Assembly (NCBI GenBank): GCA_958296235.1
Contig: OY282457.1
Span: 4,335,338 to 4,399,337, forward strand
Length of the DNA stretch: 64,000 nt
Source of the DNA: an uncultured Candidatus Binatia bacterium
GTDB lineage: Bacteria; Desulfobacterota; Binatia; Bin18
Direction of reading: 5' to 3'
Positions 5,781 through 46,276 of this stretch are shown here, in pieces. How positions within the stretch are numbered: the first letter of the stretch is position 1; each line of letters begins with the position of its first letter. The notes beneath the pieces are model-generated. The model was given only the letters and a program-made list of their open reading frames with translations, was not told the origin of the DNA and did not search any database. A program made the position numbers and the translations under genes.

Positions 5781-5798
5781 GTGTGGATTGTCCTCACT

Positions 5799-20396: not shown

Positions 20397-21965
20397 CTAC
20401 GTTCCTTCAAACAACGCCTTCACATGCGACTCCGGCAATGGTTGCGTTGCTTTGGAGACGACATAGGTACAGGCGACCGACATGAGTTCTCCCAGCGTTG
20501 CGCAGGAGAACGGACTCGGTCCTTCGGCGTGCAGCCAGGCCACGGCGGTGTGCAGCGGGCCGGGCGCAAACCAGGCGGGGTCAATCATTTGCGTGTGCAG
20601 CGCGAGGAAGGTGACGAAACCGCTGACCAGGCCGGCATAGGCGCCTTTGCAGGTGACGCCGCGCCAGAGCGCGCCGACCACGAGGGGCCCGGCAAAGGCC
20701 GCCATCATGCCCCCGTTCCCGATCCAGACAATGAGCGCGATATTGGTCTCGACCAAAGCCCAGGCCAGGGCGGTACACAGTACCAGAACAACAACCGTCG
20801 CCACCCGACTGATGGATAAAATACGCCGGTCCAGTTGCTCAGCATTCGGAGGATTCTTGAGGCGAGGCACGATGGTCCGACGGTAGAGATCGTTGGCAAT
20901 CACCTGGGATGAGGAGATGACCAGCCCATCCGCGGTGGACATGATAGCCGCCAGCACACCCACCCCAATGAGGGCGGCGAGCCAGGTTGGAAACAACTCG
21001 ATAAAGAGGAGGGGGAGGGCCTGATTCGGGTTCGCCCCCTCGGCATAGAGCGCGTCGCCCAATATCGCGCGGGCGAGGAGACCGCCCAGCCCGAGCATGC
21101 CCAGCGTCAGCCCAAACGTGAAGGCCAGCCTGATAAACGATTTCTGTTGGCTCACGCTTTGTAATGCCCAGAGTTTGTTCCCGAGATGGGGGAGCAGACC
21201 AAGCGGTATATGCGCAATAAAAATAGCCACAACGGACCACCAGGAGTGATACAGCGCAGTCTCGGCATTGAGCGCGCCGACCAGGTGCGCGTCCTGCTCG
21301 GTGAGGCTGTCGATGATGCCCAGCAGGCCGGCTCTTTCGCCGTCCACCCCAAATCCGGTCAAAAACAGGACGATTACCATTACCGCGACCAGCAGCATCA
21401 TGAAGCCCTGCACCCCATCGGTCAGGATGTCGGCATGCGCGCCGCCGAGCACGACGTAAATCAACAACACGCTCGTGGTAATGAGCAGCGCCCACAGGGG
21501 GGACAGGCCCAGCATAATCTCGAACATCACCAGCCCGGATACCAGCTGGCCGGCCAGATAGAAAAACAGCACGAGGGAAAAGACCGAAATGAGTATCCGA
21601 ATGCCTTCGGACTGGTAGCGGTCGCCGAGGTATTCCGGTATGGAGCGGTTCCCAAACCGATGGCCCGAGGTGGTAATCAGACGCATGGCGACCAACACGC
21701 CGACATACATCCCGGTCGGGTACAGGAAGCAGCCCCACATCGTCGGCAGTCCCCACTCGTAGCCAAGTCCTGAGCTGCCGAGAAAGGTGGCGCCGCTGGC
21801 CGTGGTCGCGGCAAAGGCAAACGCGAGAAATAACGGTCCGTACGCCCCGCGCGCGGTTGCAAAGTCGTCAGCGTGCTTGACCCGTCGCCCGGCCAACACG
21901 CCGATGGCCAACATGCCGCCGATATAAATGATGAGAAAGGTCCACGACCAGGCAATGAGTGACAT
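20397..21965 (-). CDS. Sodium:solute symporter family protein (copy 2)
   Basis: 522 residues, a paralogue of the 17.5 kb symporter with the same start (WTFLIIYIGGMLAIGVLAGR), sodium-site region (ASGATFLGSSGLGYEWGL) and IMSTADGLVISSSQ block. It begins 24 bases after the CoA-transferase on the same strand, so uptake of an acid and its CoA activation are probably co-expressed. Differences from copy 1 are spread along the sequence, consistent with an old tandem duplication. Confidence 0.93.
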   Translation of the reverse strand: MSLIAWSWTFLIIYIGGMLAIGVLAGRRVKHADDFATARGAYGPLFLAFAFAATTASGATFLGSSGLGYEWGLPTMWGCFLYPTGMYVGVLVAMRLITTSGHRFGNRSIPEYLGDRYQSEGIRILISVFSLVLFFYLAGQLVSGLVMFEIMLGLSPLWALLITTSVLLIYVVLGGAHADILTDGVQGFMMLLVAVMVIVLFLTGFGVDGERAGLLGIIDSLTEQDAHLVGALNAETALYHSWWSVVAIFIAHIPLGLLPHLGNKLWALQSVSQQKSFIRLAFTFGLTLGMLGLGGLLARAILGDALYAEGANPNQALPLLFIELFPTWLAALIGVGVLAAIMSTADGLVISSSQVIANDLYRRTIVPRLKNPPNAEQLDRRILSISRVATVVVLVLCTALAWALVETNIALIVWIGNGGMMAAFAGPLVVGALWRGVTCKGAYAGLVSGFVTFLALHTQMIDPAWFAPGPLHTAVAWLHAEGPSPFSCATLGELMSVACTYVVSKATQPLPESHVKALFEGT

Positions 21966-23231: not shown

Positions 23232-23392
23232 GGTTTTCTCCTTGCCAGATCAAATGACTGTTTCGCGCTTACTTGTACCGTGTCTGATTCCTGACGCAAA
23301 GAGGGGCGCAGGGCCGCTCCCTTGCCGTGGCCAGGGCCATCCCATATCATACCGCCTGCAAAAACGCCCGGTAGGATGAGGGGAGGGCCTCA

Positions 23393-23466
23393 ATTTGACC
23401 ATTCCCCCTCACTCCAGCCCTCTCCCCTTCGACAGGCTCAGGACAGGACTCCAGAGGAGAGGGAGC
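23393..23466 (+). repeat. Dispersed palindromic repeat element, copy 1
   Basis: The stretch begins near TCAATTTGACCATTCCCCC, then runs through CCCTCTCCCC, TTCGACAGGCTCAGGACAGG and AGAGGAGAGGGAG. The outer CTCTCCCC and GAGGAGAGGGAG arms are complementary, so it can fold into a hairpin. Related copies occur near 26.6, 39.9, 46.1 and 60.6 kb. It lies upstream of glyS. Confidence 0.75.
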
Positions 23467-23492
23467 CGCACAGACAAGATGAGAACACCTGT

Positions 23493-26482: not shown

Positions 26483-26593
26483 ACTCCCTCCGTCGTGGTC
26501 ATGAACTCAGAGACAGAGTAGCAAATCACCGGGTTATGGCTACACCGGAGAGCGTGTTTTCAGCGGGGTCGGGAGCAGTAGCTAATGGTCGGG

Positions 26594-26646
26594 GGAGTCC
26601 ACTTCCCTCTCCCCTGGAGGGAGAGGGTTAGGGTGAGGGGGCCTGC
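26594..26646 (+). repeat. Dispersed palindromic repeat element, copy 2
   Basis: A short version of the family: CCCTCTCCCCTGGAGGGAGAGGGTTAGGGTGAGGGG read in pieces gives an inverted repeat (CCCTCTCCC with GGGAGAGGG) followed by GGGTGAGGGGG. It lacks the TTCGACAGGCTCAGG core. It directly precedes the left boundary repeat of the polysaccharide island. No coding sequence lies between 26483 and 26900 apart from these repeats. Confidence 0.7.
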
Positions 26647-26650
26647 TCAC

Positions 26651-26802
26651 CCCGAGCGGCCCGTGGTACCTGGATAAGGACATTGTTTTGCCTTAGCATT
26701 ATGTCCAACTCATGGATTCTCTCCCCAATAAGTCCGCCCATGTCTCCCCTCCCCCCCGCAAAACCTTTGTAAATTCAACAGTTTACCAGTAAGTTGAGCA
26801 CA
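26651..26802 (+). repeat. Left boundary repeat of the polysaccharide island
   Basis: About 150 bases that match, in the same orientation, 39977-40115 on the other side of the island. Shared blocks include TGGTACC, TTGTTTT-CCTTA, AAGTC-GCCCATGTC, AAAACCT and TGTAAATTCAA. The two are clearly homologous but diverged and differ by a few indels. Each is preceded by a palindromic repeat, so the composite unit is about 200 bases. Confidence 0.65.
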
Positions 26803-26862
26803 TCCCGCCAGGCTCCTGTCCGTCGTCCTCCCCTGCTTCAACTATAACTAGGGCCGTTACTG

Positions 26863-27534
26863 CTGGCTTGCCGCATGTTGCTAGGCATGATTGAAAAGAG
26901 ATAAATGAATTCTGGTCCCATTGGCAAGCGCCACAGGGCTCGAAGTCCAGCGTCCGGTTCACCAAGCCGTGTTGCGCTCCAACCGAAGCCGGCAATGACA
27001 GAGACGCTGGAAGTCCCGGCCACAACCGGCGGGCAGGACGTGTCCGTCATGTTAGTGACCCTGGCTGGCATGGCGGGGCTGACCCTGCTGATACAGGGGC
27101 TGCTCACAGCCGCGAGTGGGCTCATGCTGGGGTTCCTGCTGATCTCCAGCGCGGTGGGTACCGCGCTGTTCCCCTGGGTCGCGGGCGTGGAACGCGTCGA
27201 GATGGTCGCGCGCTGCCTGCGCCTGGTCTGCGTGAGGACCGCGCTTCCCCTGCTCGTCCTGCTCGCGCTCAGCGCCACCCTGGTGCGTCTCCTGCTTTCG
27301 GACGCCTTCCTGCCGGTGGTGCCGCTCTTGTGGATTATCGCGCCGGGGCTGCTCGCCTACGCCGTCTCGGGAATCTTCATGACCCACTTCAAGGGTGCCC
27401 ACCGCCCGGATATCTGCTCGTGGGCGGTCTTCCTGGGGCTGTGCGCCAATCTCGGCGTGCTGCTCCTGCTCTACCCGAGCCTCGGCGTCGCGGCGGCGGC
27501 GCACAACGACGACCGACATCTTGCGAAGGTGTGA
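26863..27534 (+). pseudogene. Internally deleted Wzx-type flippase remnant, copy 1
   Basis: From the ATG at 26995 (or 26905) the frame reads ATTGGQDVSVMLVTLAGMAG, which matches the N-terminus of the intact flippase at 31.3 kb (TTGGQDAAIVFATG). It then joins straight to the C-terminal half (LMLGFLLISSAVGTALFPWV through VVPLLWIIAPGLLAYAVSG). About 200 residues in the middle are absent. At 27501 the match to copy 2 stops and the frame ends at 27532. The 639 bases 26863-27501 align without gaps to 34954-35592 with about 20 mismatches. It could still make a small membrane protein, but as a transporter it is broken. Confidence 0.8.
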
Positions 27535-27537
27535 CCG

Positions 27538-28806
27538 GTGGCCGACGGCAGACTCCATATCGGGTTCGTGCTGCCCAGCCTGGGCGGGGGCGGGGCGGAA
27601 CGCGTCATTCTGAACCTGACGCAGTCTCTCGTTGAGCGCGGACATCGGGCGGACTTGTTGATCCCTCGGTTCGCGGGAGACTACCGGGCCGCAATTCCTC
27701 GTGGAGTGCGATTGTATCGGGGGCGGCTTCCTCATACCGACAGGAGGTTCCTGCGGGAAGTCCAACAGTCGGCGGCAGGAGGCGCAGAGGGCGCAGGAGT
27801 AACGGCGCTTGGCGTGAATCCGGTCATGGTCGCATGGGTCGGGCTGATTCTTGGCCGCAAGTACCCTGGCGTACGCGTCCCGCGCAAGCGTTCTCTTTAT
27901 GCTTCTGTCCACATTCTGAACCGTTACGTTCGCGAGGTGCGTCCTCATGTGTTGGTGTCGGCGCTGCCGGGCCCCAACACCGTCGCGGTCTGCGCTGCCG
28001 AGTTGACGGACCGGGCCGTGCCGGTGGTGGTCACGGTACATAACAACGTCGCCGCGGACTATGCGCCGGAGTGGCTGGCCGCGGCCCGGACACTCTATCC
28101 ACTGGCCGACGCGGTGGTGGCGGTGTCCAAGGGCGTGGCCGAGTCCGTGCGGCGATCATTGGGGATGGACGCCGAGCGCGTTCGCACCATCTACAACCCC
28201 ATTCCCGCCGCCAGCATACGAAGGCTGGCGCAGGGGGAAGTCACGCACCCCTGGTTCGCGGACGGTGAGCCGCCGGTGGTCCTGAGCGTCGGGCGCGAAG
28301 CGCCGCAGAAGGACTTCCCCACCCTGGTGGAGGCGTTCGGGCTGGCGCGGCGCGAGGTGGACGCACGGCTGGTCATCCTCGGCAAGCTCTCGGCGCCCTT
28401 CCGGGCAAGGCTGCGGTCCCTGGCGCGGGGCCATGGCGTGGAAGGGGACCTTGGCTTCGTGGACTTCGACGAAAACCCGTACCGCTACATGCGGCGGGCG
28501 GGGCTGCTCGCCCTCTCCTCGCGCTGGGAGGGTTTGCCGGGAGTGATCCTTGAGGCGCTGGCGTGCGGCACGCCGGTGGTCAGCACCGACGCGCCCTACG
28601 GTCCGCGCGAGATCCTTGGGGGTTGGGGTGACCTGCCGCCGGTGGGCGACGTGCCGGCGCTGGCGCGGGGGCTGGTCGCCACGCTGCGGGGCGCGCGGCC
28701 AACGGCGGCAGCTCTGCGGGCACGCGCCGCCGACTTTTCACCCGAGCAGGCCACCGACGCCTATGTCGCGCTGTTCGAGAAGCTGGCGAGGGGGCGCGCG
28801 GGGTGA
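27538..28806 (+). CDS. GT4-type glycosyltransferase (tandem copy 1)
   Basis: 422 residues, GT-B fold. The N-terminal acceptor domain starts LHIGFVLPSLGGGGAERVIL with the glycine-rich loop. The C-terminal donor domain has VVLSVGREAPQKDFPTLVEA and the EX7E motif in SSRWEGLPGVILEALACGTP. From about residue 185 to 360 it is nearly identical to copy 3, while its N-terminal residues 55-130 are the most divergent of the three. The GTG start at 27538 lies three bases after the flippase remnant's stop. It probably adds one sugar of a surface polysaccharide. Confidence 0.92.
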   Translation: MADGRLHIGFVLPSLGGGGAERVILNLTQSLVERGHRADLLIPRFAGDYRAAIPRGVRLYRGRLPHTDRRFLREVQQSAAGGAEGAGVTALGVNPVMVAWVGLILGRKYPGVRVPRKRSLYASVHILNRYVREVRPHVLVSALPGPNTVAVCAAELTDRAVPVVVTVHNNVAADYAPEWLAAARTLYPLADAVVAVSKGVAESVRRSLGMDAERVRTIYNPIPAASIRRLAQGEVTHPWFADGEPPVVLSVGREAPQKDFPTLVEAFGLARREVDARLVILGKLSAPFRARLRSLARGHGVEGDLGFVDFDENPYRYMRRAGLLALSSRWEGLPGVILEALACGTPVVSTDAPYGPREILGGWGDLPPVGDVPALARGLVATLRGARPTAAALRARAADFSPEQATDAYVALFEKLARGRAG

Positions 28807-30062
28807 GTTCGGACCATCTCCATATCGGCTTCCTGCTGACCAGCCTGCACGGCGGCGGGGCGGAGCGCGCCATGCTCAACCTGGCGGCGGCGCTCATCGA
28901 ACGCGGGCACCGGGCGGACCTGGTGATCCCCCGGTTGGCGGGAGACTACCGGGCCGCGATCCCTGGCGGGATGCGGGTCTGGCGGGCGCGGATTCCCGGC
29001 ACCGACGGGAAGTTCCTGCGGGCGATCCGGCGGGCGGGAGTCGACGTGGAGGCGATGACCGTCAACCCCATCGGGGCCGCGCGGACCTGGCTGGTGCTCG
29101 CGCGCAGGTATCCCGGGATACCGGTGCTACGCGGCAGCGGTCTGCGCTCCATCTATCCCCTCGCCCATTTTCTGTCGCGGTACGTTCGCGAGGTACGCCC
29201 CCATGTGCTGGTGTCGGCGCTGCCGGGCCCCAACACCGTCGCGGTCTGCGCTGCGGAGTTGACGGACCGGGCCGTTCCGGTAGTGGTCACGGTGCGCAAC
29301 GTCCCCGCGGACTACTATGCACCGGAATGGCTGGCCGCATCCCGGACGCTCTATCCACTGGCCGACGCGGTGGTGGCGGTGTCCAGGGGCGTGGCCGAGT
29401 CCGTGCAGCAATCGTTGGCGGTGGACGCCGAGCGCGTTCGCACCATCTACAACCCCATTCCCGCCGACAGCATACGGCGGCTGGCGCAAGCGGAAATCAC
29501 GCATCCCTGGTTCGCGGACGGCGAGCCGCCGGTGGTCCTGAGCGTCGGGCGCGAAGCGCCGGCGAAGGACTACCCCACCCTGGTGGAGGCGTTCGGGCTG
29601 GCGCGCCGCGAGGTGGACTCACGGCTGGTCATCCTCGGGCGGCTCTCGGCCCCATACCAGGAAAGGCTCAAGTCCCTGGCGCGGGGCCATGGCGTGGAAG
29701 GAGACCTCGGCTTCGTGGACTTCGACGAAAACCCGTACCGCTACATGCGGCGCGCGGGACTGCTCGCGCTCTCCTCGCGCTCGGAGGGGCTGCCGGGGGT
29801 GATCCTCGAGGCGCTGGCCTGCGGCACGCCGGTGGTCAGCACCGACACGCCCTACGGTCCACGGGAGATCCTTGGGGGTTGGGGCGACCTGCCGCCGGTG
29901 GGTGACGCGCCGGCGCTGGCGCGGGCGCTGGCCAGGACACTGCGGGGCGAGAGGCCAACGGAGGAGGCACTACGGGCGCGGGCCGCCGACTTTTCCCCCG
30001 AAAAGGCCGCCGACGCCTATGTCGCGCTGTGCGAGAAGCTGACGAGGGGGGGCGTGCGGTGA
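28803..30062 (+). CDS. GT4-type glycosyltransferase (tandem copy 2)
   Basis: 419 residues, with the same architecture as copies 1 and 3: FLLTSLHGGGAERAMLNLAA near the start and SRSEGLPGVILEALACGTPV as the EX7E motif. The GTG start overlaps the previous stop as GTGA, giving translational coupling. The N-terminal 90 residues are closest to copy 3, while the segment LVSALPGPNTVAVCAAELTD matches copy 1. It therefore looks like part of a mosaic set. The donor sugar is unknown. Confidence 0.92.
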   Translation: MSSDHLHIGFLLTSLHGGGAERAMLNLAAALIERGHRADLVIPRLAGDYRAAIPGGMRVWRARIPGTDGKFLRAIRRAGVDVEAMTVNPIGAARTWLVLARRYPGIPVLRGSGLRSIYPLAHFLSRYVREVRPHVLVSALPGPNTVAVCAAELTDRAVPVVVTVRNVPADYYAPEWLAASRTLYPLADAVVAVSRGVAESVQQSLAVDAERVRTIYNPIPADSIRRLAQAEITHPWFADGEPPVVLSVGREAPAKDYPTLVEAFGLARREVDSRLVILGRLSAPYQERLKSLARGHGVEGDLGFVDFDENPYRYMRRAGLLALSSRSEGLPGVILEALACGTPVVSTDTPYGPREILGGWGDLPPVGDAPALARALARTLRGERPTEEALRARAADFSPEKAADAYVALCEKLTRGGVR

Positions 30063-31300
30063 GTTCGGCCAAGCTTCATGTCGGCTTCCTGCTGACCGGC
30101 CTGAACGGGGGCGGGGCGGAGCGCAACATTCTCCGCCTGGCGGCGGCGCTCATCGCGCGCGGGCACCGGGCGGATCTGGTGATCCCCAAGTTCGCGGGAG
30201 ACTACCGGGCCGCGATCCCTGACGGGATGCGTGTCTGGCGAGCGCGGATTCCCGGCACCGACAGGAAGTTCCTGCGGGCGGTGCAGCGGGCGGGAGTCGA
30301 GGTGGAAGCGATGACCGTCAATCCCTTCGGGGTCGTGCGGAGTTGGCTGGTGCTTGGCCGGAAGGGTCTCCACCTGCCGGCTCGAAGGCGTCACCGTGTC
30401 TATGCGTATGCAGCCATGATTGCGACGTACGTTCGCGAAGTACGCCCGCATGTGCTGGTGTCGGCGCTGCCGGGTGCCGACGCCGCCGCGGTCTGCGCCG
30501 CGGAGTTGATGGACCGGGCCGTTCCGGTGGTGACCACGGTGTGGAACAACGTCACCGCGGACTATACGCCGGAATGGCTGGAAGCATCCAGGACACTCTA
30601 TCCGCTGGCCGACGCGGTGGTGGCGGTGTCCAAGGGCGTGGCCGAATCCGTGCGGCGATCATTGGGGATGGACGCCGAGCGCGTTCGCACCATCTACAAC
30701 CCCATTCCTGCCGCCAGCATACGAAGGCTGGCGCAGGGGGAAGTCACGCACCCCTGGTTCGCGGACGGCGAGCCGCCGGTGGTCCTGAGCGTTGGGCGCG
30801 AAGCGCCGCAGAAGGACCACCCCACCCTGGTGGAGGCGTTCGGGCTGGCGCGGCGCGAGGTGGACGCACGGCTGGTCATCCTCGGCAAGCTCTCGGCGCC
30901 CTTCCGGGCAAGGCTGCGGTCCCTGGCGCGGGGCCATGGCGTGGAAGGGGACCTTGGCTTCGTGGACTTCGACGAAAACCCGTACCGCTACATGCGGCGG
31001 GCGGGGCTGCTCGCCCTCTCCTCGCGTTGGGAGGGTTTGCCGACGGTGATTCTCGAGGCGCTGGCGTGCGGCACGCCGGTGGTCAGCACCGACGCGCCCT
31101 ACGGTCCGCGCGAGATCCTTGGGGGTTGGGGTGACCTGCCGCCGGTGGGCGACGCGCTGGCGCTGGCGCGGGCGCTGGCCAGGACACTGCGGGGCGAGAG
31201 ACCAACGGCGGCAGCTCTGCGGGCACGCGCCGCCGACTTTTCCGTCGAGCAGGCCACCGACGCCTATGTCGCGCTGTTCGAAGAACTGGTACGGCGCTAG
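30059..31300 (+). CDS. GT4-type glycosyltransferase (tandem copy 3)
   Basis: 413 residues from the GTG at 30059, again overlapping the previous stop as GTGA. The N-terminus (LHVGFLLTGLNGGGAERNIL) resembles copy 2. Residues from about 180 onward resemble copy 1 with only a couple of changes (KDH for KDF, LPT for LPG). The final part (ALARALARTLRGERPT) resembles copy 2 again. The acceptor region around GRKGLHLPARRRHRVYAYAA is unique. EX7E is SSRWEGLPTVILEALACGTP. Confidence 0.92.
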   Translation: MSSAKLHVGFLLTGLNGGGAERNILRLAAALIARGHRADLVIPKFAGDYRAAIPDGMRVWRARIPGTDRKFLRAVQRAGVEVEAMTVNPFGVVRSWLVLGRKGLHLPARRRHRVYAYAAMIATYVREVRPHVLVSALPGADAAAVCAAELMDRAVPVVTTVWNNVTADYTPEWLEASRTLYPLADAVVAVSKGVAESVRRSLGMDAERVRTIYNPIPAASIRRLAQGEVTHPWFADGEPPVVLSVGREAPQKDHPTLVEAFGLARREVDARLVILGKLSAPFRARLRSLARGHGVEGDLGFVDFDENPYRYMRRAGLLALSSRWEGLPTVILEALACGTPVVSTDAPYGPREILGGWGDLPPVGDALALARALARTLRGERPTAAALRARAADFSVEQATDAYVALFEELVRR

Positions 31301-31313
31301 AGCTGTCGAAGCC

Positions 31314-32645
31314 ATGACACCGGAAGAGTCGAATAGGCCACTCGGTCCGCGCACGACCGGCGGACAGGATGCAGCCATCGTGTTCGCGACCGGTGTCTGC
31401 ACGGTCATCTTCGGCCTCGCGATCCAGAGTCTCCTGGCCTATACGCTGTTGCCGGAAGGACGCGGCAGCTTTGCCCTGTGCGTCGTGTTCGCAAGTGTTC
31501 TCGGCGTGCTCTTCACGCCCGGGGCGCGAGAAGGCGCGCAGTATTTCGTCGTGACCAGACAGGCGACCGTCTCGGAAGGTGTCGGTGCCGCCCTGGCGAT
31601 CTGCCTCGCCGGTGGGGCCTTGGCGCTCACATTGGCGGCCCCGTTTGTCCACAGCGATATCGCCTTCTTTCACAAGGCAGAGACGCGCTCGTTCTACCTG
31701 GCGCTTGCCCTGGTACCTGTCATGGCGTTCTCGGGCGCCACGGAGTATCAACTCGCCGGGCTCCGGCGCTTCGGACATCTCGCGGTTTTCACCCTGGTGC
31801 ATGTCGCCGTGAACATCCTCGTTCTGCTGGTCCTCGTCTGGGTCGGGCGGCTCGGGGTGGACGGTGCCGTCGCGGCGGTCGTCGGCGCGCATGGTTGCAC
31901 GGTGGTCTTGTGTGCGTGGTACCTGCGGGGCCATTATGGGCTGGTTCTGACCAATCCGCTCCGCGCTGTCTCTGCGCGAATCGTCGGCTACGGTCTGCGA
32001 TTCCATCCCGCGGGCATAGGCAGCGCACTGGAAATGAGCGCGGGCGTTCTCATTCTCGGGCTGTTCGCGAGCCAGGCCGAAATCGGCTTGTTCGCAACGG
32101 CGAGCGCGCTCATGTTCCGACTGCGAATAATCTCCGACGCGGTCGGCAATGCGCTGCTGCCCCGTATCGCCGGCAGCGGCCGCCCGGAATTGACGACACT
32201 CTGCCTGCGTGTCGTGTCGTGTGGCACCGTGGCCACGATTCTTGTCATACTGCTGATCCGTACGCCGCTGGTTCGGATCCTCTTCTCCGAGGCCTTCCTG
32301 CCGGCGGTCCCGCTACTGTGGATCATCGCCCCGGGAGTGCTCGCCTATGCCTGCGCCGGCATACTCGAAACCTATTTCAAGGGTATCGACCGCCCGGGCA
32401 TCTGTTCCTGGGCTGTCTCCCTGGGACTGGCTGCGAATCTGATTGCGATTCTCGTGCTCTATCCGGTAGTCGGCGTCTCAGCCGCAGCCTGGGGGTTGGC
32501 CCTGGGAATGATTTGCCGACTCGTCCTTCTCGCGACGGCGTTTGCAAGAGCGACTCGAATGCGCTGGCTCTCAATCTGGCTGCCGCGACCCGGCGACGCG
32601 GTCTCTTTCTGGCGGGCATTCCGCGCCGCGCTCGGCAGCGGGTAA
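31314..32645 (+). CDS. wzx: Wzx-type polysaccharide flippase
   Basis: 443 residues with 12 or more hydrophobic segments, in the MOP/MATE-like polysaccharide transporter family. It would flip lipid-linked repeat units across the inner membrane. The start GPRTTGGQDAAIVFATGVCT and the C-terminal RILFSEAFLPAVPLLWIIAP correspond to the two halves kept in both remnants in this island, so this is the intact parent type. It follows the third glycosyltransferase by 13 bases and is convergent with asnB. Confidence 0.9.
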   Translation: MTPEESNRPLGPRTTGGQDAAIVFATGVCTVIFGLAIQSLLAYTLLPEGRGSFALCVVFASVLGVLFTPGAREGAQYFVVTRQATVSEGVGAALAICLAGGALALTLAAPFVHSDIAFFHKAETRSFYLALALVPVMAFSGATEYQLAGLRRFGHLAVFTLVHVAVNILVLLVLVWVGRLGVDGAVAAVVGAHGCTVVLCAWYLRGHYGLVLTNPLRAVSARIVGYGLRFHPAGIGSALEMSAGVLILGLFASQAEIGLFATASALMFRLRIISDAVGNALLPRIAGSGRPELTTLCLRVVSCGTVATILVILLIRTPLVRILFSEAFLPAVPLLWIIAPGVLAYACAGILETYFKGIDRPGICSWAVSLGLAANLIAILVLYPVVGVSAAAWGLALGMICRLVLLATAFARATRMRWLSIWLPRPGDAVSFWRAFRAALGSG

Positions 32646-32742
32646 CCTTGCGATACACGCGAGACGCTTGCTCTGTAAGGCGGAGTCCGATCAGGAACAA
32701 ATGCTGGTGCCTGAACGCTTACGCGCAAAGACGTTCGGGCTC

Positions 32743-34749
32743 TCAGGGCCCGGTACGCCTGGTCCAGAGTTCCCGTCGACTGCGGTCCAGCCATGCCTGA
32801 AACATCAGAATGTTCCAGAGGTGCTGTTCACATTGCGCATGCGCATTCAGAAATTCATACCATTTTCGACGGACGGGCCGCGGGTCGAAAAAACCCTCCG
32901 TCCGCAGCCGTCTGGCGTCCAATAATGCCTCCGCCCAATCCCTGAGTGGACCACGCAGCCACGAGGCGAGCGGTATGGAGAATCCCGCCTTCGGCCGTTC
33001 GACGAGCCGCATCGGTACGTACTTGTAGAGCACCTGCCGCAAAACCCACTTGCTCTGAGCGTTACGGATCCTGAAAGACAGCGGCAACCGCCAGACAAAC
33101 TCCATGACGTGATGGTCAAGGAATGGCGCACGCGTCTCGAGACTCACGCCCATCGCCGCCCTATCCACTTTAACGAGAATATCATCTGGAAGGTAACTCA
33201 GACTGTCGACCGCCATCAATCGTTCTGCAAATTCAGACGCAGCGGGCCAGCTTGCGGATTTGTTCAGGACGGTTTCAGGTTCGGACGCTCCGCGCACGAC
33301 CGCGGACGGATTCCGCCAGTGAGAGAGGGAGAGCCAATGGAGTTCCTCCTGCGTCCGACAATTGGCTAACAGCGCCAGCGTGTGCGCTTTGGCTTGTAGC
33401 CGGTGTCGCCCGCGGTCCATTGGCAGCCGGCCAAGGACACGGGCCGGTAAACTGTCCGCTCCATGCGCCTGAGTGGCTATGATCGCGCCTGCGACGAAGC
33501 GGCGCAACGGTGCCGGCACACTGGACAGCCAGCGCCATCGCCGGGGCGTCGAGACGTAGTGCCCATAACCGCCGAACATCTCGTCGCCGCCGTCTCCAGA
33601 CAGGGCGACGGTGACGTGCCGGCGGGCCATCCCGGCAACCAGGAAGGTCGGGATCTGCGAGGAATCGGCAAAAGGCTCGTCGAAGAGGTCAGGCAAGCGA
33701 GGAATGACGTCGAGCGCATCCCGCGCTGATACGTATAGTTCGGTGTGTTCGGTCCCCAGGTGGCCGGCCACGGCCTTGGCGTGTTCCGCTTCGTTGTATT
33801 CGGATTCGTCGAATCCGATGGCGAAAGTTCGTACCGGCCACCTGGATTGCGCCTGCATCAATGCAACGACGGTCGACGAGTCGATCCCGCCGGAGAGGAA
33901 GGCACCGAGCGGGACGTCCGCGGCCATCTGCCGGCGCACTGCCCGGAGCAACAGGTCGTGCAGGGCGTCCACCGCGTCTTCGGGGGTGCCCTCGAACGGT
34001 TGCGCCCGTCCTGCTGCTACCACGTCCCGCAACGACCAGTAACGCCGCGGTTCCGGCAGTTCGCCGACACGCTGCTCCCGTGAAGCGCCGGCAGCCACCC
34101 TGAGGTACATGCCCGCCGGCAGCTTTCGCACTCCCTTGTAGATCGACCAGGGGGATGCAATGTAGCCGTGGCGCAGGAGCAGGGTGAGCGCGTCCCTGTC
34201 GATGTCTCCCTCGAATGCAGGATGCGCCGCGAGCGCCTTCAGCTCGGACCCGAACAGGAACACGCCGTTCTGCCAGCCGTAATAGAGCGGTTTTTCGCCC
34301 ATCCGGTCGCGGGCCAGACAGAGTGTTCTGTCCTCCCGGTCCCAGAACGCGAAGGCGAACATGCCGGTGGCCGCCTGCAACGCCTCCTCCAACCCCCAAT
34401 ACTCGATGGCGGCCAGCAGCGTTTCCGTATCGGAATGTCCCCTCCAGGACAAAGCGTCCGGACGCCGGGCCTCGATCTGCCGCCTGAGGTCAAGGTGGTT
34501 GTATATCTCGCCATTGAAGACGATGACGCTTCGCCCAGAGGCGGACTGCATCGGCTGGCGGCCGGCTGGTGACGGATCGATGACGGCCAGACGCCGGTAG
34601 GCCAGTGCGATTTCGGCCTCACGGTCGATCCAGACCCCGGCATCGTCGGGACCACGATGCGCAACGGCGTCCACCATCCCGCGTGCGACCGGCGACGCTT
34701 CTTCTGGAGTGAAACGCTCGCCTCCAAGAAAACCGGCTATGCCGCACAT
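32743..34749 (-). CDS. asnB: AsnB-type glutamine-dependent amidotransferase
   Basis: 668 residues. The class II glutaminase domain begins MCGIAGFLGGERF, so Cys2 becomes the N-terminal nucleophile after Met removal. The synthetase domain has the ATP pyrophosphatase loop PLGAFLSGGIDSSTVVALM and SGDGGDEMFGGYGHYV. Homologues make asparagine, or in polysaccharide islands amidate uronic acids or other sugar acids; the location favours the latter (inference). It is transcribed against its neighbours. An upstream in-frame start would add 42 residues that lack family similarity. Confidence 0.92.
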   Translation of the reverse strand: MCGIAGFLGGERFTPEEASPVARGMVDAVAHRGPDDAGVWIDREAEIALAYRRLAVIDPSPAGRQPMQSASGRSVIVFNGEIYNHLDLRRQIEARRPDALSWRGHSDTETLLAAIEYWGLEEALQAATGMFAFAFWDREDRTLCLARDRMGEKPLYYGWQNGVFLFGSELKALAAHPAFEGDIDRDALTLLLRHGYIASPWSIYKGVRKLPAGMYLRVAAGASREQRVGELPEPRRYWSLRDVVAAGRAQPFEGTPEDAVDALHDLLLRAVRRQMAADVPLGAFLSGGIDSSTVVALMQAQSRWPVRTFAIGFDESEYNEAEHAKAVAGHLGTEHTELYVSARDALDVIPRLPDLFDEPFADSSQIPTFLVAGMARRHVTVALSGDGGDEMFGGYGHYVSTPRRWRWLSSVPAPLRRFVAGAIIATQAHGADSLPARVLGRLPMDRGRHRLQAKAHTLALLANCRTQEELHWLSLSHWRNPSAVVRGASEPETVLNKSASWPAASEFAERLMAVDSLSYLPDDILVKVDRAAMGVSLETRAPFLDHHVMEFVWRLPLSFRIRNAQSKWVLRQVLYKYVPMRLVERPKAGFSIPLASWLRGPLRDWAEALLDARRLRTEGFFDPRPVRRKWYEFLNAHAQCEQHLWNILMFQAWLDRSRRELWTRRTGP

Positions 34750-34953
34750 GTCATGCGCTTGATGGATTTCGGCGCTGGCCGTGGCCCGTCCGTCCGCACT
34801 TCTGTCCCATATACCTTCAAATAAAGGCGGCTTGAACCTTCCATATCTGGTAGAGTGATTGGTAGCATAACCCATTAAAAAGACAGGGGTCCAAGCCGTG
34901 GCTCATCATAACACAGTCTTCGCGCAATTTCGGCCACCAGATGGCCATCACCA

Positions 34954-35799
34954 CTGGCTTGCCGCATGTTGCTAGTCATGATTGAAAAGAGATAAATGAA
35001 TTCTGGTCCCATTGGCAAGCGCCACAGGGCTCGAAGCCCAGCATCCGGTTCGCCAATCCGCGTCATGCTCCAATCGAAGCCGGCAATGACAGATGCGCTG
35101 GAAGTCCCGGCCACAACCGGCGGGCAGGACGTGTCCGTCATGTTAGTGACCCTGGCTGGCATGGCGGGGCTGACCCTGCTGATACAGGGCCTGCTCACAG
35201 CCGCGAGTGGGCTCATGCTGGGGTTCCTGCTGATCTCCAGCGCGGTGGGTACCGCGCTGTTCCCCTGGGTCGCGGGTGGGGAGCGCGTCGAGATGGTCGC
35301 GCGCTGCCTGCGCTTGGTCTGCGTGGGGACCGCGCTTCCCCTGCTCGTCCTGCTCGCACTCAGCGCCACCCTGGTGCGTCTCCTGCTTTCGGACGCCTTC
35401 CCGCCTGTGGTGCCGCTCTTGTGGATTATCGCGCCGGGGCTGCTCGCCTACGCCGTCTCGGGAATCTTCATGACCCACTTCAAGGGTGCCCACCGCCCGG
35501 ATATCTGCTCGTGGGCGGTCTTCCTGGGGCTGTGCGCCAATCTCGGCGTGCTGCTCCTGCTCTACCCGAGCCTCGGCGTCGCGGCGGCGGCGTGGGGCCT
35601 GACCATCGGCATGGTGTGCGGGTGTTCGTTCCTCTCCATCGTTTTCCACAGAACGACACGAACGGGTCTGACTGCGGTCTGGCGGCCGCGGCACAGCGAC
35701 CTGGACTTCCTGTGGGCCGCGGGCCGGGTCGGGCTGTCCGGTAGGGTCAGGGGGAGGGCCGCCGCCCATACTCAACTCGTGAAAGAGGCATCCCGTTGA
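34954..35799 (+). pseudogene. Internally deleted Wzx-type flippase remnant, copy 2
   Basis: From ATG 35086 the frame reads ATTGGQDVSVMLVTLAGMAG and jumps at the same point as copy 1 to the C-terminal half. Unlike copy 1 it keeps the true C-terminus (WGLTIGMVCGCSFLSIVFH onwards). It is about 237 residues and lacks roughly the first half of the membrane segments. The last 170 bases shared with copy 1 appear identical. Its stop overlaps the next glycosyltransferase as TTGA, so it may still be translated and coupled. Confidence 0.8.
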
Positions 35800-36920
35800 G
35801 CGGGAAAGAGCGCCGAGCGCCCCGCATCCTGCTCATCGCTCCGATACAGAAGGCCGGAGCGTCCGTTAGCAACGTGGCCGGGGGCAACAAGGTGATGGCC
35901 GACGAACAGGTGCGGGAATTGGGGGCACGCGGCTTCGAGGTGGACGTCATCGACACGTCGGGGGGCGTGACCAATCTGCCCGCCTGGAAAATCTGGGCCA
36001 ATCGTCTGGCAAGGTTCCTGCGAGTAGCCTGGGGAGTCGCAAGGAAGCTATGGCGCTCCGACGTCGTGTTCCTCATCATCGCGTCCTATTCGGCGCTGAG
36101 CCTGGCATCGTTCCTGTGGGCCGTCTGCAAGATCGCGCGCAGGCCCCTGGTGTTGCGTATCACCGGGGGCGACATGATGGTGGAGTACTTGGAATATGGC
36201 GCGTTCGCGCGTTGGCTGGCCGAGCGGACCTATATGCGCTCTTCACTGGTGTACGTGGAGACGCAGTATCTGCACCAGAGCTTCGACAACCGGGGCAACT
36301 TCAGGTGGTTCCCGAATACGAGAAGCATGGAGGCACCCGCCCGGACCGGGCGCGACAGGGTGGAAAGGCTGATTTTCGTTGCTCGTTTAGCGATGTTCAA
36401 GGGGCTGGCCGAAGCCCTCGAGGCGTGCCGCCACCTGCCGGAGAATTGTCATCTCAACGTCTTCGGTCCCGGCATGTCCGACACGGATTTCTCCCTGTTC
36501 GAGGACCATCCCAGGGCGACCTACGGTGGCGTCCTGGACCCGGCGGAAATACCACGGGCCCTCAGTGAACACGACCTGCTGGTGTATCCCAGCTACTACC
36601 GGAACGAGGGCTACCCCGGCGCCATCCTCGAAGCCTTCCAGTGCGGCCTGCCCGTCGTCGCCACCAGGAGGGGCGGCATTGCGGAGCTGGTCGAGCACGA
36701 AGAGAGCGGGCTGCTGGTGGAACCCCGTTCCGCTGCAGAGGTCGAGTCCGCGATCAAGCGGTTGCTGGACGAGCCCGAACTGTACCGGCAACTCTGTGAG
36801 GGAGCAAGACGGCGAGGGGACCAGTTTCGGAGCGCGGACTGGTACGACCGCGTGGCCGCCGAGTTGCGCAGCCTGTGCCGGAAACAGAGCCCACGCGGCC
36901 GGCGGGCCCCACGGCCATGA
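35796..36920 (+). CDS. GT4-type glycosyltransferase (unrelated to the tandem set)
   Basis: 374 residues. The N-terminus APRILLIAPIQKAGASVSNV fits a GT4 start, followed by a hydrophobic stretch (SDVVFLIIASYSALSLASF). The donor domain has VERLIFVARLAMFKGLAEAL and the EX7E motif in NEGYPGAILEAFQCGLPVVA. It starts at a TTG overlapping the flippase remnant's stop and is followed 15 bases later by the wzy-like gene, so the genes are probably one transcript. Confidence 0.9.
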   Translation: MSGKERRAPRILLIAPIQKAGASVSNVAGGNKVMADEQVRELGARGFEVDVIDTSGGVTNLPAWKIWANRLARFLRVAWGVARKLWRSDVVFLIIASYSALSLASFLWAVCKIARRPLVLRITGGDMMVEYLEYGAFARWLAERTYMRSSLVYVETQYLHQSFDNRGNFRWFPNTRSMEAPARTGRDRVERLIFVARLAMFKGLAEALEACRHLPENCHLNVFGPGMSDTDFSLFEDHPRATYGGVLDPAEIPRALSEHDLLVYPSYYRNEGYPGAILEAFQCGLPVVATRRGGIAELVEHEESGLLVEPRSAAEVESAIKRLLDEPELYRQLCEGARRRGDQFRSADWYDRVAAELRSLCRKQSPRGRRAPRP

Positions 36921-36935
36921 CGCAAGGGTAAACGT

Positions 36936-38678
36936 ATGTTGCCGCTGCTTCCGTTCCTCTGGAGGCGACTCGAGTCCGTAGCGGTTGCCTGCAGCGCCCG
37001 CCGAACCGAGCCGCTCCAGGCCACGCTGATCGCAGTCGCGTTCTGGACATTGGCGATCATCGCTCTGACCAACCTGAGGTACGTGCATCTTGGGGGGATA
37101 CCACAGGTCGAGGTAGTCATTGCACGGGCGACCATGGCCTGCTGTGTCCTCTTGTTGGGCCTGGTTGGAGCCCGGTGCGTGATTGCCTGGCGAAAGTCTA
37201 CTTCTCTCCTTTCTCTCTGGGGGGTACTTGGCGGAACACCCGGCATGTTGTTGTTCGCTGCGGTGGCGTCCTATCTGGCGATCGGCGCTGCCGTGCTGGG
37301 CGTCGAGGCAATCTCGCAGCCCGAAACGGCTGGGAGATTGAAGTATCGAGTCCTCCATTTCAGCGTGCTCGTGGCCGCCGCGGTCGGTGGCCGCGCGGTG
37401 CTGGAACGAACCGGAGCCAAGACGTTGTTGCAGTGGACGCTCGTGATTCTGGTGGCAAGCTGCGCCGTCGTTCTGGCCTCGCCGGTCCTGCGTGATATTG
37501 GCATGCTGCCGGAGTACCGGCATCTCTATCGCATGACCGGTACTTTTTCCGATCCCAACGACGCGGGCTTCATCGCTTGCATGACGGTAGTACTGGCATT
37601 GGCATTTCAATCCAACGAACGGCAACGCGCCCTTGGGTATCTGGCCCTGGTCCTGGGATGCGCCGCGGGACTCGCATCGTTCTCCGCTACAGCGATTCTT
37701 GTTCTGGGCGGGATGCTCATTCTGTTCCTGCTGCTGAATGTCCGCCGCCTGAGACAAGACCTCTTGCATACCGGCCTGACTGTTCTGTGCATGGCCGGCA
37801 TCCTGGTTTGGCTCATTCCGGGGGCACCGGTAGTGAATACCCACCAAGCCTGGATTGATGATCCGTACGAAGCGAAGCGTGTCGGAGACACTATCACCGT
37901 TTACCTGGTTGACAACAAGCCCCACCGGGCTGACGACTACCCGGCAAATTCCTGGCGATGGCAGCGGGCCGACGCCCGGCCCGGCGATGTCAATACGCCC
38001 GACGACGCTACTTGGACCAACATCGAAGGCGCGCTTTCATCCAACTACACCCCGGCGGACGAAGACGGGGGCAAGTTCTTGCGCGCCTGGATGTCCTACG
38101 AGAAGAACGGCATGACGCACCGGGTTCAAACGGAGGCCATAGGCCCGATTATGGCGGCACCCGCAGCGACCGCGACGGATGCCAACGCGCTGGCCCATCC
38201 ACTGAAGGCACCAAGTGAGACCGTGGAGGCTTTCAGTGGCAAAGTCGATTCCACCAGCGGCAGTGGGAGAGCTCTATCGAGACGAATGCTCTTGTGGGAG
38301 ATGGGCTTCAATAAGGTCCTGGAATCGCCCATCATAGGTCACGGCTTGTATCAGCTCCACTGTATGGAGGGCGCCCCTATCGGAAACCAGGGGACGCCGA
38401 CCGGGGTCCACAATGTGTACCTGATGCTGGTTGGCGAAGCGGGCATTATTCCATTTGCATTATACTTGCTATCTCTGTTCTTCTTGATGCGGTTGCTTTG
38501 GACCGTGCCGAAGTCCCTGGGCAGGGATTTGGTTGTTGGATGGGTTATTGTGATGGCCCTGTACGGCCTGTCGTTTCACCATTTACTCACCACGGGGGCC
38601 TACAATTTCGTTATCGGCCTGGCCTGTGCCACCGCGGCGTTCCTCGTTCAGAGGCAAAGAGACCCAACCGCGGCGTGA
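36936..38678 (+). CDS. Wzy/WaaL-type O-antigen polymerase/ligase with an Ig-like insertion
   Basis: 580 residues. About ten hydrophobic segments and a Wzy_C loop (GVHNVYLMLVGEAGIIPFAL, with the conserved His in GxHN) place it with O-antigen ligases and polymerases. Between about residues 312 and 404 lies a hydrophilic module with the bacterial Ig-like pattern: VGDTITVYLVD, then SWRWQRAD, then ATWTNIEGALSSNYTPADED, then GKFLRAWMSYEKNG. Typical family members lack this module. It sits in the expected periplasmic loop. The enzyme would join or polymerise lipid-linked glycans. Confidence 0.88.
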   Translation: MLPLLPFLWRRLESVAVACSARRTEPLQATLIAVAFWTLAIIALTNLRYVHLGGIPQVEVVIARATMACCVLLLGLVGARCVIAWRKSTSLLSLWGVLGGTPGMLLFAAVASYLAIGAAVLGVEAISQPETAGRLKYRVLHFSVLVAAAVGGRAVLERTGAKTLLQWTLVILVASCAVVLASPVLRDIGMLPEYRHLYRMTGTFSDPNDAGFIACMTVVLALAFQSNERQRALGYLALVLGCAAGLASFSATAILVLGGMLILFLLLNVRRLRQDLLHTGLTVLCMAGILVWLIPGAPVVNTHQAWIDDPYEAKRVGDTITVYLVDNKPHRADDYPANSWRWQRADARPGDVNTPDDATWTNIEGALSSNYTPADEDGGKFLRAWMSYEKNGMTHRVQTEAIGPIMAAPAATATDANALAHPLKAPSETVEAFSGKVDSTSGSGRALSRRMLLWEMGFNKVLESPIIGHGLYQLHCMEGAPIGNQGTPTGVHNVYLMLVGEAGIIPFALYLLSLFFLMRLLWTVPKSLGRDLVVGWVIVMALYGLSFHHLLTTGAYNFVIGLACATAAFLVQRQRDPTAA

Positions 38679-38723
38679 CGGCGGGCGGGGGCAAAAATCA
38701 AGTTATGTGGAGATCGCTTGGAA

Positions 38724-39800
38724 ATGAATAATAGTTTCCGAAGTCTCTTGCGGCTATGGCGCCGGGTAGGAATGGGCAGCCCTCGAAAGTATTACAGTCG
38801 GGGCGGGCGGATAGCCAGGCGTCTTGGGCTGAAAAGGACTCCTTTCCTGCCCACCAGCATCGACGTCGAGCCCATCGATACGTGCAACTTTGCCTGCGAC
38901 CATTGTCAGGTGACGCATTGGACGCGGAAGACGACCCGGTTGACCACCGAGCGGTTCATCTCAATTCTCCGCCAGTTGCCGATGCTTCGTCAGATCAAGC
39001 TCCAGGGAATGGGAGAACCGCTGCTGAACCGACATCTTATTGAGATGCTGGAAGAGGGAGAGATGGGGGGACGTAGCGTCTCCATCGTCACCAATGGTTC
39101 GGTTTATACCGAGAATATCGCCCAGCGGCTTAGCTCTCTGCGGGGGACGACGATTACCATCAGCATGGACGGCGCGACCGCGGAGACGTTCGAGGCAATC
39201 CGAGTCAACGGCAACTTTCAGAAAGTGGTCGATAACGTCGCAGACATGGTCCGCCGCCGCGGCCGCAGCGTCTGGCCCGGTATCGAACTGCGGTCGGTCG
39301 TTACGCTCCGAAACGCCCACGAACTTCCAGATCTCGTGCGGTTGGCGAAACGCCTCGGTGTGGACAAGCTGACGGCAACAACTTTGCTCACCGACTGGGG
39401 AAAAGAGGAGATGGAGGGGTCAATTGCGGCGATAGACGTTTCCCGGGGAGATCCCCGGGTGGACCAGTCCATCCGGGAGTCGAGAGAAGTCGCCGCCGAG
39501 GTCGAGATGCCGCTCAGCGTCGAGCATGGTCAAAGGTATTCCAAGGCGAACCGCTGCCCCTGGCCTTGGACCGCCTCCTACATCGCGGCGAACGGCGACG
39601 TCGTCCCCTGCTGTCAAATAGCCGATTCCAGCGTCGTAAAAATGGGCAACGTGTTCGACGAGCCATTCGCCGATATTTGGAACAACGACAAATACCGGGA
39701 ACTGCGCCGGCGCATTGCCGGCGACGACATTCCGCACTATTGCCGCGGTTGCTACGGAATGAAGCCGGTAGCCGCCTCCACGGACCGGCGGTCGCAATGA
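38724..39800 (+). CDS. Radical SAM protein with SPASM-type C-terminus
   Basis: 358 residues. The radical SAM cluster motif is in IDTCNFACDHCQVTHW (CxxxCxxC), and KLQGMGEPLLNRHLIEMLEE is the SAM-binding GGEP-like region (here GMGEP). The C-terminus has Cys-rich NRCPWPWTASYIAANGDVVPCCQ and PHYCRGCYG, a SPASM/twitch cluster. Such enzymes modify peptides or sugars, and its position at the end of a glycan island suggests a sugar or linker modification. ATG 38724 is used; a TTG at 38718 has slightly better Shine-Dalgarno spacing. Confidence 0.9.
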   Translation: MNNSFRSLLRLWRRVGMGSPRKYYSRGGRIARRLGLKRTPFLPTSIDVEPIDTCNFACDHCQVTHWTRKTTRLTTERFISILRQLPMLRQIKLQGMGEPLLNRHLIEMLEEGEMGGRSVSIVTNGSVYTENIAQRLSSLRGTTITISMDGATAETFEAIRVNGNFQKVVDNVADMVRRRGRSVWPGIELRSVVTLRNAHELPDLVRLAKRLGVDKLTATTLLTDWGKEEMEGSIAAIDVSRGDPRVDQSIRESREVAAEVEMPLSVEHGQRYSKANRCPWPWTASYIAANGDVVPCCQIADSSVVKMGNVFDEPFADIWNNDKYRELRRRIAGDDIPHYCRGCYGMKPVAASTDRRSQ

Positions 39801-39894
39801 AATGCAGGTGACCATCGCCCGAGGCAGCGGAGGGACAAAGCCAGCGAGAGCGCGCAATTTCGATGATACAATTCCGCAGAAGCCGGGTTCTGCT

Positions 39895-39952
39895 TCCCTC
39901 GCCCCTGGAGGCCTGTCCTGAGCCTGTCGAAGGGGAGAGGGCTGGGGTGAGG
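39895..39952 (-). repeat. Dispersed palindromic repeat element, copy 3
   Basis: Read on the minus strand it is CCCTCACCCC, CCTCTCCCC, TTCGACAGGCTCAGGACAGG and CTCCAGGGG, the same order as at 23.4 and 46.1 kb. Near its other end AAACTGAACCACTACC follows at 39963-39979. It sits just after the radical SAM gene and before the right boundary repeat. Confidence 0.75.
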
Positions 39953-39976
39953 GGGAATAAGCAAACTGAACCACTA

Positions 39977-40115
39977 CCGAGGCCCTTGGTACCGCTAGGG
40001 TCGTTGTTTTTCCTTACGTTACGCCTGACTCATAGATGCTCGCTCCGCTAAGTCAGCCCATGTCCACCCGAAAAACCTCTGTAAATTCAATAGCTTAACA
40101 GTAAATAACACTCAT
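39977..40115 (+). repeat. Right boundary repeat of the polysaccharide island
   Basis: The diverged direct copy of 26651-26802 (see there). No gene lies between 39801 and 40173; the stretch is filled by this repeat, the palindromic element before it and about 60 AT-richer bases. Confidence 0.65.
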
Positions 40116-40173
40116 CTTGCCACGATTCTGTCGGGCGATTACGCCGAGATTAAATATACTTCTTTATCTCCAC

Positions 40174-40767
40174 TCATTCCGTTGTTGGGCAACCGCGGGT
40201 GACGCAGGAATCGGAAAAAATAATGGTATCTTCATTCGGGTAACTGTGGGCGGTCTTGATGGTCACACGCTGGCGCGCGCTGTCGAGCATCACCCAGACC
40301 AGGGTTTGTGGAGCCGCGCCTCGTGGTGTGGCTGGAAAAGCATACGTGAGACCCAGACTGGAGGGCAGGGTGGTAGCGGCGCTCGTTCGGACAATACGCC
40401 GCGCCAATGCCTGGAAGGGAGGCTGCCCGCGCTGGCTGTCCGTTCGCCGGGCCTCAAAATGATAGTGCATTGCCGGCGTGAGCTGGAGGTCAACAGGGCG
40501 AACCAAGTTTGCAATCCAGTCTGAGAACGCCGGTTGTAATGTGGGGGGGATATCCGCGCAGGCCAGGATTTCGGAAACATGGTGGGTGTTGTCATACGCT
40601 ATGTGGATGAGGTGGCTGGTGCCGATAATACTCGCCTGTACCTGGAACTGGGGTTGTTCCAGGCGCAGCGTGGCCAGCGGCCTGAAGTGCTGAAAATCCA
40701 CCCTGTCGGCGATAACGTGGAGCCGGAGCTCGGCGGCGGACTGCTCCTTGTAGGTAAGCGCGCTCAT
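40174..40767 (-). CDS. DUF2617 family protein
   Basis: 197 residues from the ATG at 40767. VQASIIGTSHLIHIAYDN, EILACADIP, YHFEARRTDS and the closing TIKTAHSYPNEDTIIFSDS match the layout of DUF2617 proteins. Family function is unknown. Its ATG overlaps the TSUP permease stop as ATGA, so the two are translationally coupled. No signal peptide is seen. Confidence 0.8.
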   Translation of the reverse strand: MSALTYKEQSAAELRLHVIADRVDFQHFRPLATLRLEQPQFQVQASIIGTSHLIHIAYDNTHHVSEILACADIPPTLQPAFSDWIANLVRPVDLQLTPAMHYHFEARRTDSQRGQPPFQALARRIVRTSAATTLPSSLGLTYAFPATPRGAAPQTLVWVMLDSARQRVTIKTAHSYPNEDTIIFSDSCVTRGCPTTE

Positions 40768-41700: not shown

Positions 41701-41747
41701 AGCGAGAGGGTCAAGCAGAAGGCGTCGGGCAGGAAAGAATCTCGTCG
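41701..41747 (+). repeat. Left flanking direct repeat of the CRISPR-Cas9 locus
   Basis: 47 bases that match 46002-46048 in the same orientation at 42 positions. Shared blocks are GTCAAGCAGAAGGC and GGCAGGAAAGAATCT. It lies 57 bases before the tracrRNA 3' end; its partner lies 38 bases beyond the last CRISPR repeat. I found no other copy in the window. Confidence 0.75.
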
Positions 41748-41759
41748 TCAGCGGAGGGA

Positions 41760-41839
41760 AAGGCCCGGCGTACCGAGCCTTCCAATTTTGTGACTTGAGC
41801 CTTGTTAACGAGTTGGCTCAAATCCAGATGATCTAAGCT
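41760..41839 (-). ncRNA. tracrRNA
   Basis: On the minus strand the sequence from 41839 down is the anti-repeat: 22 consecutive pairs with the CRISPR repeat (one G-U), then a small bulge, then a six-pair lower stem (CAACTC with GGGTTG) and a final GTTG/TAAC pairing. A tail with AACAAGGCTCAAGTC follows. It ends in a 9-bp GC hairpin at 41760-41781 with a four-base TACG loop, then TTTCCC. This is the layout of a type II tracrRNA. The 5' end is inferred and could extend a few bases toward cas9; a TATACGAT element about 10 bases upstream may be the -10 box. Confidence 0.87.
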
Positions 41840-41901
41840 GTGGAAGCGTAGCATCGTATACGCTAGCCTGCAAGAAATATTTGAAAGAGAGGAGGGCAAG
41901 C

Positions 41902-45150: not shown

Positions 45151-45176
45151 TTGGCGGTCTCGTTGAAGTCGCTGAA

Positions 45177-45200
45177 AATGGACGCTACCTATCCGTCCAT
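45177..45200 (-). terminator. Hairpin at the cas9-proximal end of the array
   Basis: Between the cas9 stop and the first repeat, ATGGACG (45178-45184) pairs with CGTCCAT (45194-45200) around a nine-base loop. Read on the minus strand the stem is followed directly by TTTT; on the plus strand by CGAG. This fits an intrinsic terminator for an array transcribed from right to left. Confidence 0.6.
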
Positions 45201-45202
45201 CG

Positions 45203-45963: not shown

Positions 45964-46001
45964 GTCACATATCGGTGACTGACATCACAGGACTGACACG
46001 T

Positions 46002-46048
46002 AGCGAGAGCGTCAAGCAGAAGGCACCCGGCAGGAAAGAATCTTGTCG
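46002..46048 (+). repeat. Right flanking direct repeat of the CRISPR-Cas9 locus
   Basis: Partner of 41701-41747 (five mismatches in 47 bases, no gaps). It starts 38 bases after the last CRISPR repeat, leaving very little room for a leader. The 38 bases contain the inverted repeat GTCAC/GTGAC (45964-45979). Confidence 0.75.
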
Positions 46049-46057
46049 ATAATGTCC

Positions 46058-46200: not shown

Positions 46201-46276
46201 CCCATCTTGTCTGTTTCCTTGACCCTCAGCGTGTCTCTGCCTATGATCCGAGGACGCTGGCCAAAGGAGGGCGGAC

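Follow-up and report, generated by a model that had tools for sequence, protein, structure and literature searches.

Remnants of replaced genes and exchanged gene modules are both familiar from bacterial surface-polysaccharide loci. The O-antigen gene clusters of Salmonella contain remnant wzy genes (PMC3715488), in which a glycan-processing gene that has been functionally replaced survives inside the cluster. Capsule loci are exchanged as modules by recombination in pneumococci (cps; PMC5850285) and Klebsiella (PMC13043062), within one species or genus in the parts of these reports considered here. Lateral gene transfer between distant lineages has been described for sponge symbionts, and the portion of that study considered here deals with sialidases, esterases, attachment, restriction and CRISPR proteins, and eukaryote-like repeats (Robbins et al. 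2021, PMC8163846). Both polymerase remnants in O-antigen clusters and, in general terms, transfer among sponge symbionts are already known.

The locus described here lies in a 64,000-nucleotide stretch of a Candidatus Binatia genome (the window) and combines features of these systems. As in Salmonella, the remnant is a glycan-processing gene, but it is wzx rather than wzy, it carries differing lesions over several phyla rather than in one species, and one remnant is duplicated around an incoming module. Likewise, the exchange takes place between distant lineages, across phyla, and appears to involve a whole surface-glycan synthesis module together with its flippase. We consider it probable that a horizontally acquired cassette replaced the resident flippase, that the resident gene, wzxA, decayed, and that a duplication-type recombination left its wreck on both sides of the newcomer. 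The twice-present broken gene would then be a scar of module exchange. Surface glycans govern the encounters of symbionts with host and phages.

The features of the locus are collected in Table 1. The original prediction had recognised 639-bp direct repeats, with clustered mismatches and an identical end, lying in direct orientation around three glycosyltransferase genes, an intact flippase gene and asnB. Ungapped alignment (offset 8091) bears this out, with 21 mismatches and 96.7% identity: 12 mismatches fall in the first 142 bp and eight at 27186-27315; the last 186 bp (27316-27501) are identical and could be a conversion tract. The open reading frames (ORFs) between the copies are three GT4 genes, an intact flippase homologue and asnB. 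The limits of the feature, by contrast, need some amendment, as the homology extends about 11 bp further to the left (to 26852 and 34943), copy 1 is also truncated at its 3′ end, and asnB is on the minus strand. BLAST gives E = 0, and chance likeness is therefore excluded. In the whole 4.62-Mb genome, the deleted wzxA is present as these two copies only; their next relative is an intact wzx, 71% identical, 0.4 Mb away.

Table 1. Features of the glycan gene island in the window, and the parts of wzxA that survive in composite clusters (lower rows, in bp of the intact 1464-bp gene)
Feature	Position	Strand	Remarks
Glycan gene island	26567..40198	.	13.6 kb; missing in four same-genus genomes (G001-G004)
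GT2 N-terminal scrap, left of copy 1	26812..26842	+	LLSVVLPCFNY; 31 bp, 90% identical to L079, 87% to L088
Copy 1, deleted flippase gene	26863..27501	+	ORF 26905-27534; wzxA bp 1-201 plus 850-1254
Deletion joint, copy 1	27097..27105	+	9-bp near-repeat GGGCTGCTC; 9-bp overlap between the alignments to intact wzxA
Last 11 codons of wzyB polymerase gene	27502..27534	+	HNDDRHLAKV and stop; fused in frame to copy 1
GTa1, GT4 family glycosyltransferase	27538..28806	+	PF00534, PF13439
GTa2, GT4 family glycosyltransferase	28803..30062	+	
GTa3, GT4 family glycosyltransferase	30059..31300	+	Middle part 95-100% identical to GTa1
wzxB, intact flippase homologue	31314..32645	+	443 aa; 55% identical to wzxA over its length; no Pfam or NCBIfam match above cut-off
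asnB-like amidotransferase	32743..34875	-	710 aa; PF00733; TIGR01536 above cut-off; best score to TIGR03108 (exopolysaccharide-type amidotransferase), yet under cut-off
GT2 scrap, left of copy 2	34913..34968	+	SRNFGHQMAITTGLP; 91% over 43 bp to L079; right end inside repeat
Copy 2, deleted flippase gene	34954..35592	+	ORF 34996-35799 (267 aa), C-terminus retained; wzxA bp 1-201 plus 850-1464
Deletion joint, copy 2	35188..35196	+	9-bp near-repeat GGCCTGCTC
3′ end of wzxA, likely GTd translation start region	35770..35799	+	GAAAGAGG ... TTGA stop/start overlap
GTd, GT4 family glycosyltransferase	35796..36920	+	Comes after wzxA or its remains
wzyA, O-antigen polymerase/ligase-like	36936..38678	+	Wzy_C
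Radical SAM/SPASM protein, A-type cluster	38718..39800	+	
wzxA remains, window	bp 1-201 plus 850-1464		
wzxA remains, L086 (Nitrospirales)	bp 1-921 plus 1216-1464		In frame
wzxA remains, L082	bp 1199-1464		
wzxA remains, L083	bp 77-211		
wzxA remains, L085	bp 1434-1464		
wzxA remains, L087	bp 641-748		
wzxA remains, L089	bp 54-106 and 471-494		

A scan of 84,980 genomes yielded 21 loci that encode relatives, 20 of which are in chromosomes of metagenome-assembled genomes (MAGs) with accessions OY282352-OY282460. At five loci (L051-L055), a close orthologue of 474-487 aa is found without the deletion, and the leader peptide of the copies recurs from its start in four of them, while L055 has an in-frame stop inside the leader. 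Intact wzxA (487 aa) followed by GTd occurs in MAGs of Dehalococcoidia and Latescibacteria, with 83-89% DNA identity over wzxA-GTd. The intact L051 protein matches PF01943 (45.9 bits against a cut-off of 28.2), and its predicted model retrieves MATE, MurJ and WzxE (9g9p_A, TM 0.67/0.78) in Foldseek with E about 1e-8. By profile and predicted fold, intact wzxA thus qualifies as a putative Wzx-type flippase of the MOP superfamily. In contrast, the copies in the window lack about 216 residues of this fold; neither matches a Pfam family at 0.001, and the complete MOP fold is absent.

Compared with L051, both copies miss bp 202-849 of 1464. This deletion of 648 bp is in frame and takes out most of the Polysacc_synt domain region seen in the intact gene, and it joins Wzx residues 1-67 (the 40-residue leader included) to the C-terminal half at an identical point; the original prediction had likewise placed both joins at one point. 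In L051, the ends of the missing segment carry a 9-bp near-repeat, GGGGCTGCTC on the left and GGGCTGTTC on the right. That the deletion came before the duplication had also been claimed, and it is supported, because the copies are each other's closest relatives: they are 96.7% identical to one another and 81-88% identical to the intact orthologues. The data do not call for gene conversion as a means of spreading the deletion, nor do they speak against it. The Nitrospirales wzxA at L086 (3362-4528) has independently lost 294 internal bp in frame, and its joint shows a 10-bp overlap.

The edges of the copies hold traces of other genes, which the earlier interpretation, right about the shared deletion, the order of events and the orientation, had overlooked together with the presence of the cassette across phyla and the recurrent breakage of wzxA. 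Copy 1 runs in frame into the last codons of wzyB, a gene that stands directly 5′ of the GTa array in other genomes such as L083. The wzyB gene of L083 ends in AAAHNGDRHLAKA / ...LAAAHNGDRHLAKA, each before the stop, which is the same as the tail of copy 1, and the joint falls in a shared GC-rich stretch. The end of a glycosyltransferase gene such as L004 6538-7647, which also matches RHLAKV and the stop, was considered as the source of this tail and rejected, as the wzyB ends of several genomes match better and have the right position. On the left of each copy is a scrap of a GT2 gene. Both scraps match a single gene in L079 and a single gene in L088, in either of which the two matches are separated by 199 bp, and the scrap of copy 2 comes from a more central part of the gene than the N-terminal scrap of copy 1. 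Consequently, the duplicated unit comprises GT2 remains and deleted wzxA, and one such unit now stands on either side of the B module.

These edges also bear on whether the repeat is real. A duplicated or misjoined copy might arise in the assembly of a mixed community, particularly as many genomes, which probably stem from similar communities, share the cassette at about 90% identity. Such an artefact is, nevertheless, extremely unlikely in view of the 21 differences between the copies, their differing flanks with consistent GT2 scraps, the fusion of copy 1 to wzyB, and a genome that consists of a single 4.62-Mb contig.

Comparison with other genomes reveals two types of gene cluster. The A-type consists of wzxA, GTd, wzyA and the radical SAM gene, and full-length wzxA is found in L072-L076 (Dehalococcoidia and Latescibacteria, with some genes missing in some). 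The B-type consists of wzyB, a varying number of GTa genes, wzxB and, often, asnB. Composites of both, in which the B module is joined to GTd or wzyA, are found in the window, L082, L083, L085, L086, L087 and L089. In all seven composites wzxA is broken, with surviving pieces that all differ (Table 1), whereas it has its full length in all five close A-only clusters. The corresponding Fisher probability is 1/792, a figure that shared ancestry would weaken, though the lesions differ. As the composites may share ancestry, the losses of wzxA need not all be independent. A possible exception to a rule of one flippase is a Vicinamibacterales genome (G066, L080/L081), where wzxB and a wzxA relative of 63% identity are both intact and stand about 25 kb apart in opposite orientation; hence, co-presence is not always resolved. 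With a module at about 90% DNA identity across phyla and flippase breaks that differ, the composites amount to a natural repeated experiment on flippase replacement.

The DNA of wzxB in the window is 82-93% identical to that of nine other genomes, while the RF1 protein is only 51-69% identical to that of the same organisms. The carriers at high identity include Gammaproteobacteria, Nitrospirales, Acidobacteriota, Entotheonella and another Binatia. For instance, the window and Nitrospirales have 93.0% identity in wzxB DNA against 51% in RF1, and Vicinamibacterales and a Gammaproteobacterium have 95.0% against 52%. In the wzxB tree, the window has no supported place, and the Vicinamibacterales sequence is grouped with three Gammaproteobacteria (support 100/99). 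Within the class, GTa3-wzxB occurs at high identity in two of 145 genomes, the window and one with the coordinates of the Candidatus Binatia MAG OY282432 (L083), which places the window, by inference, in the same class. Homology to the four same-genus genomes stops at 26566 (26542 in G003) and restarts at about 40199; there, these genomes hold 0.6-3.4 kb of other DNA. GC content is 64.7% in the island and 58.6-58.8% in its flanks, with 68.6% in the GTa-wzxB part against 58.6% in the left flank. Absence in relatives, conflict between gene and organism, and deviating GC thus all mark the island as horizontally acquired. On these comparisons of sequence, the best reading is that A-type and B-type clusters move by horizontal transfer among several phyla.

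A purely local history would instead have the resident flippase lose its middle and the segment duplicate in this genome, with an old and native cassette between the copies. The copies are indeed closest to each other, and the bases that they share upstream are absent upstream of wzxA in L051, L052, L054 and L086. Nevertheless, this history has very little probability, given an island missing from four genomes of the genus, a module confined to two of the 145 class members, an identity of cassette DNA across phyla that far exceeds that of RF1, and the difference in GC between GTa-wzxB and the flank. A plasmid or virus was considered as the carrier of the module and rejected, since wzxB has no relative in viral contigs and a single weak match, 30% identical, in plasmids. 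Judging from the lineages that accompany them under neighbouring accessions, the bacteria that carry the module probably share marine sponge hosts. A report on Petrosia ficiformis lists a similar community, but its text contains none of these accessions, and accession searches turned up no sponge genome paper citing the series. The shared module suggests that unrelated sponge symbionts may have surface sugars in common.

In the history that we propose, an A-type cluster (GT2, wzxA, GTd, wzyA, radical SAM) and a B-type module (wzyB, GTa array, wzxB, asnB) would have been brought together. With wzxB present, wzxA would have become dispensable and could have lost its 648 bp between the short near-repeats. 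Duplication-type recombination would then have placed a GT2 scrap and deleted wzxA on both sides of the B module, for which two routes can be conceived. If a circle that carried the B module together with a segment of wzxA entered the resident wzxA by a single crossover, the observed order would result in one step. Alternatively, a tandem duplication and the subsequent loss of the stretch from copy 1 to the end of wzyB would give it in two. Profile searches of the main ORFs of the island gave neither a transposase nor an integrase, and no mobility gene or circle was seen; both the vehicle and the duplication route are thus guesses.

A further possibility is that a composite mobile element transports the cassette and has the direct repeats on either side of the module as its ends. 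In the gammaproteobacterial MAG L089, two GTd copies (2144-3258 and 5320-6434), 97.2% identical and direct, enclose an asnB-like gene in the same kind of arrangement. However, no transposase or integrase turned up in the searches just mentioned and the B module occurs in related clusters without these repeats, which makes such an element a very unlikely explanation. A bolder idea, to which we give a small chance, is that the flippase wrecks serve as recombination handles: exchange between the repeats would free the glycan module as a circle, which would enter the wzxA of another bacterium by a single crossover. If true, this would account for the distribution of one module among several phyla within a host, with no need for a transposase. 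It is, in any case, plausible that recombination between the repeats could delete the whole cassette, which would leave the island without an intact flippase, though another sits 0.4 Mb away.

Under the replacement history, the end of the wreck beside GTd may persist because the translation start region of that gene would lie in the last ~30 bases of the wreck. This final segment of wzxA includes a GAGAAAGAGGAGG-like stretch and the TTGA overlap. It is still recognisable 5′ of GTd in the window and in six other composites, which suggests such a function. A different view is that copy 2 encodes a half-size membrane protein that still works and is kept by selection (as a partner, a regulator or a minimal flippase), and that it was duplicated for dosage. 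Its deletion is in frame and its ORF is open to the native stop, and L086 has its own in-frame deletion. Furthermore, since the duplication copy 2 has accumulated eight synonymous changes and one non-synonymous change, compared with three and six in copy 1 (Fisher p = 0.05, although nine changes per copy are too few to decide). This 8:1 excess hints that copy 2 may not be pure debris; selection may act on its product or on the reading frame into GTd. Yet the Polysacc_synt domain region is mostly gone, the predicted model is poorer than that of intact wzxA (pLDDT 74 vs 83), almost the whole of wzxA is gone in other composites, and in-frame lesions also keep translation running into GTd. A working protein seems, therefore, unlikely, and decay after replacement by wzxB is the reading that we favor.

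Some further observations concern the island and its surroundings. The three GTa genes (27538-31300) are mosaic, GTa1 and GTa3 being 95-100% identical in the middle and 47-73% identical in the first 400 bp. This likeness may stem from gene conversion or recent duplication, with the mosaic pattern in favour of gene conversion. Other genomes differ in how many GTa genes they have. A REP-like repeat of about 85 bp with a CCTGTCCTGAGCCTGTCGAAGG core is found at 39890-39985, 23375-23470 and 46052-46145, and in at least 40 places in the genome. Because of this abundance, the REP-like repeats on both sides of the island (26658-26820 and 39981-40132) were set aside as weak evidence for insertion ends. 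At the island site, the same-genus genome G002 (L122) has a 963-aa ORF that resembles a DNA methylase/restriction protein; this locus might be a hot spot for insertions. The stretch at 41739-46213, which is absent from same-genus genomes with a clean joint at 41738/46214, harbours a Cas9 gene of 1089 aa with HNH and RuvC profiles; this is a second insertion directly beside the glycan island. Finally, two neighbouring sodium/solute symporter-like genes (17498-19075 and 20397-21965), with about 74% DNA identity, form a separate tandem pair.
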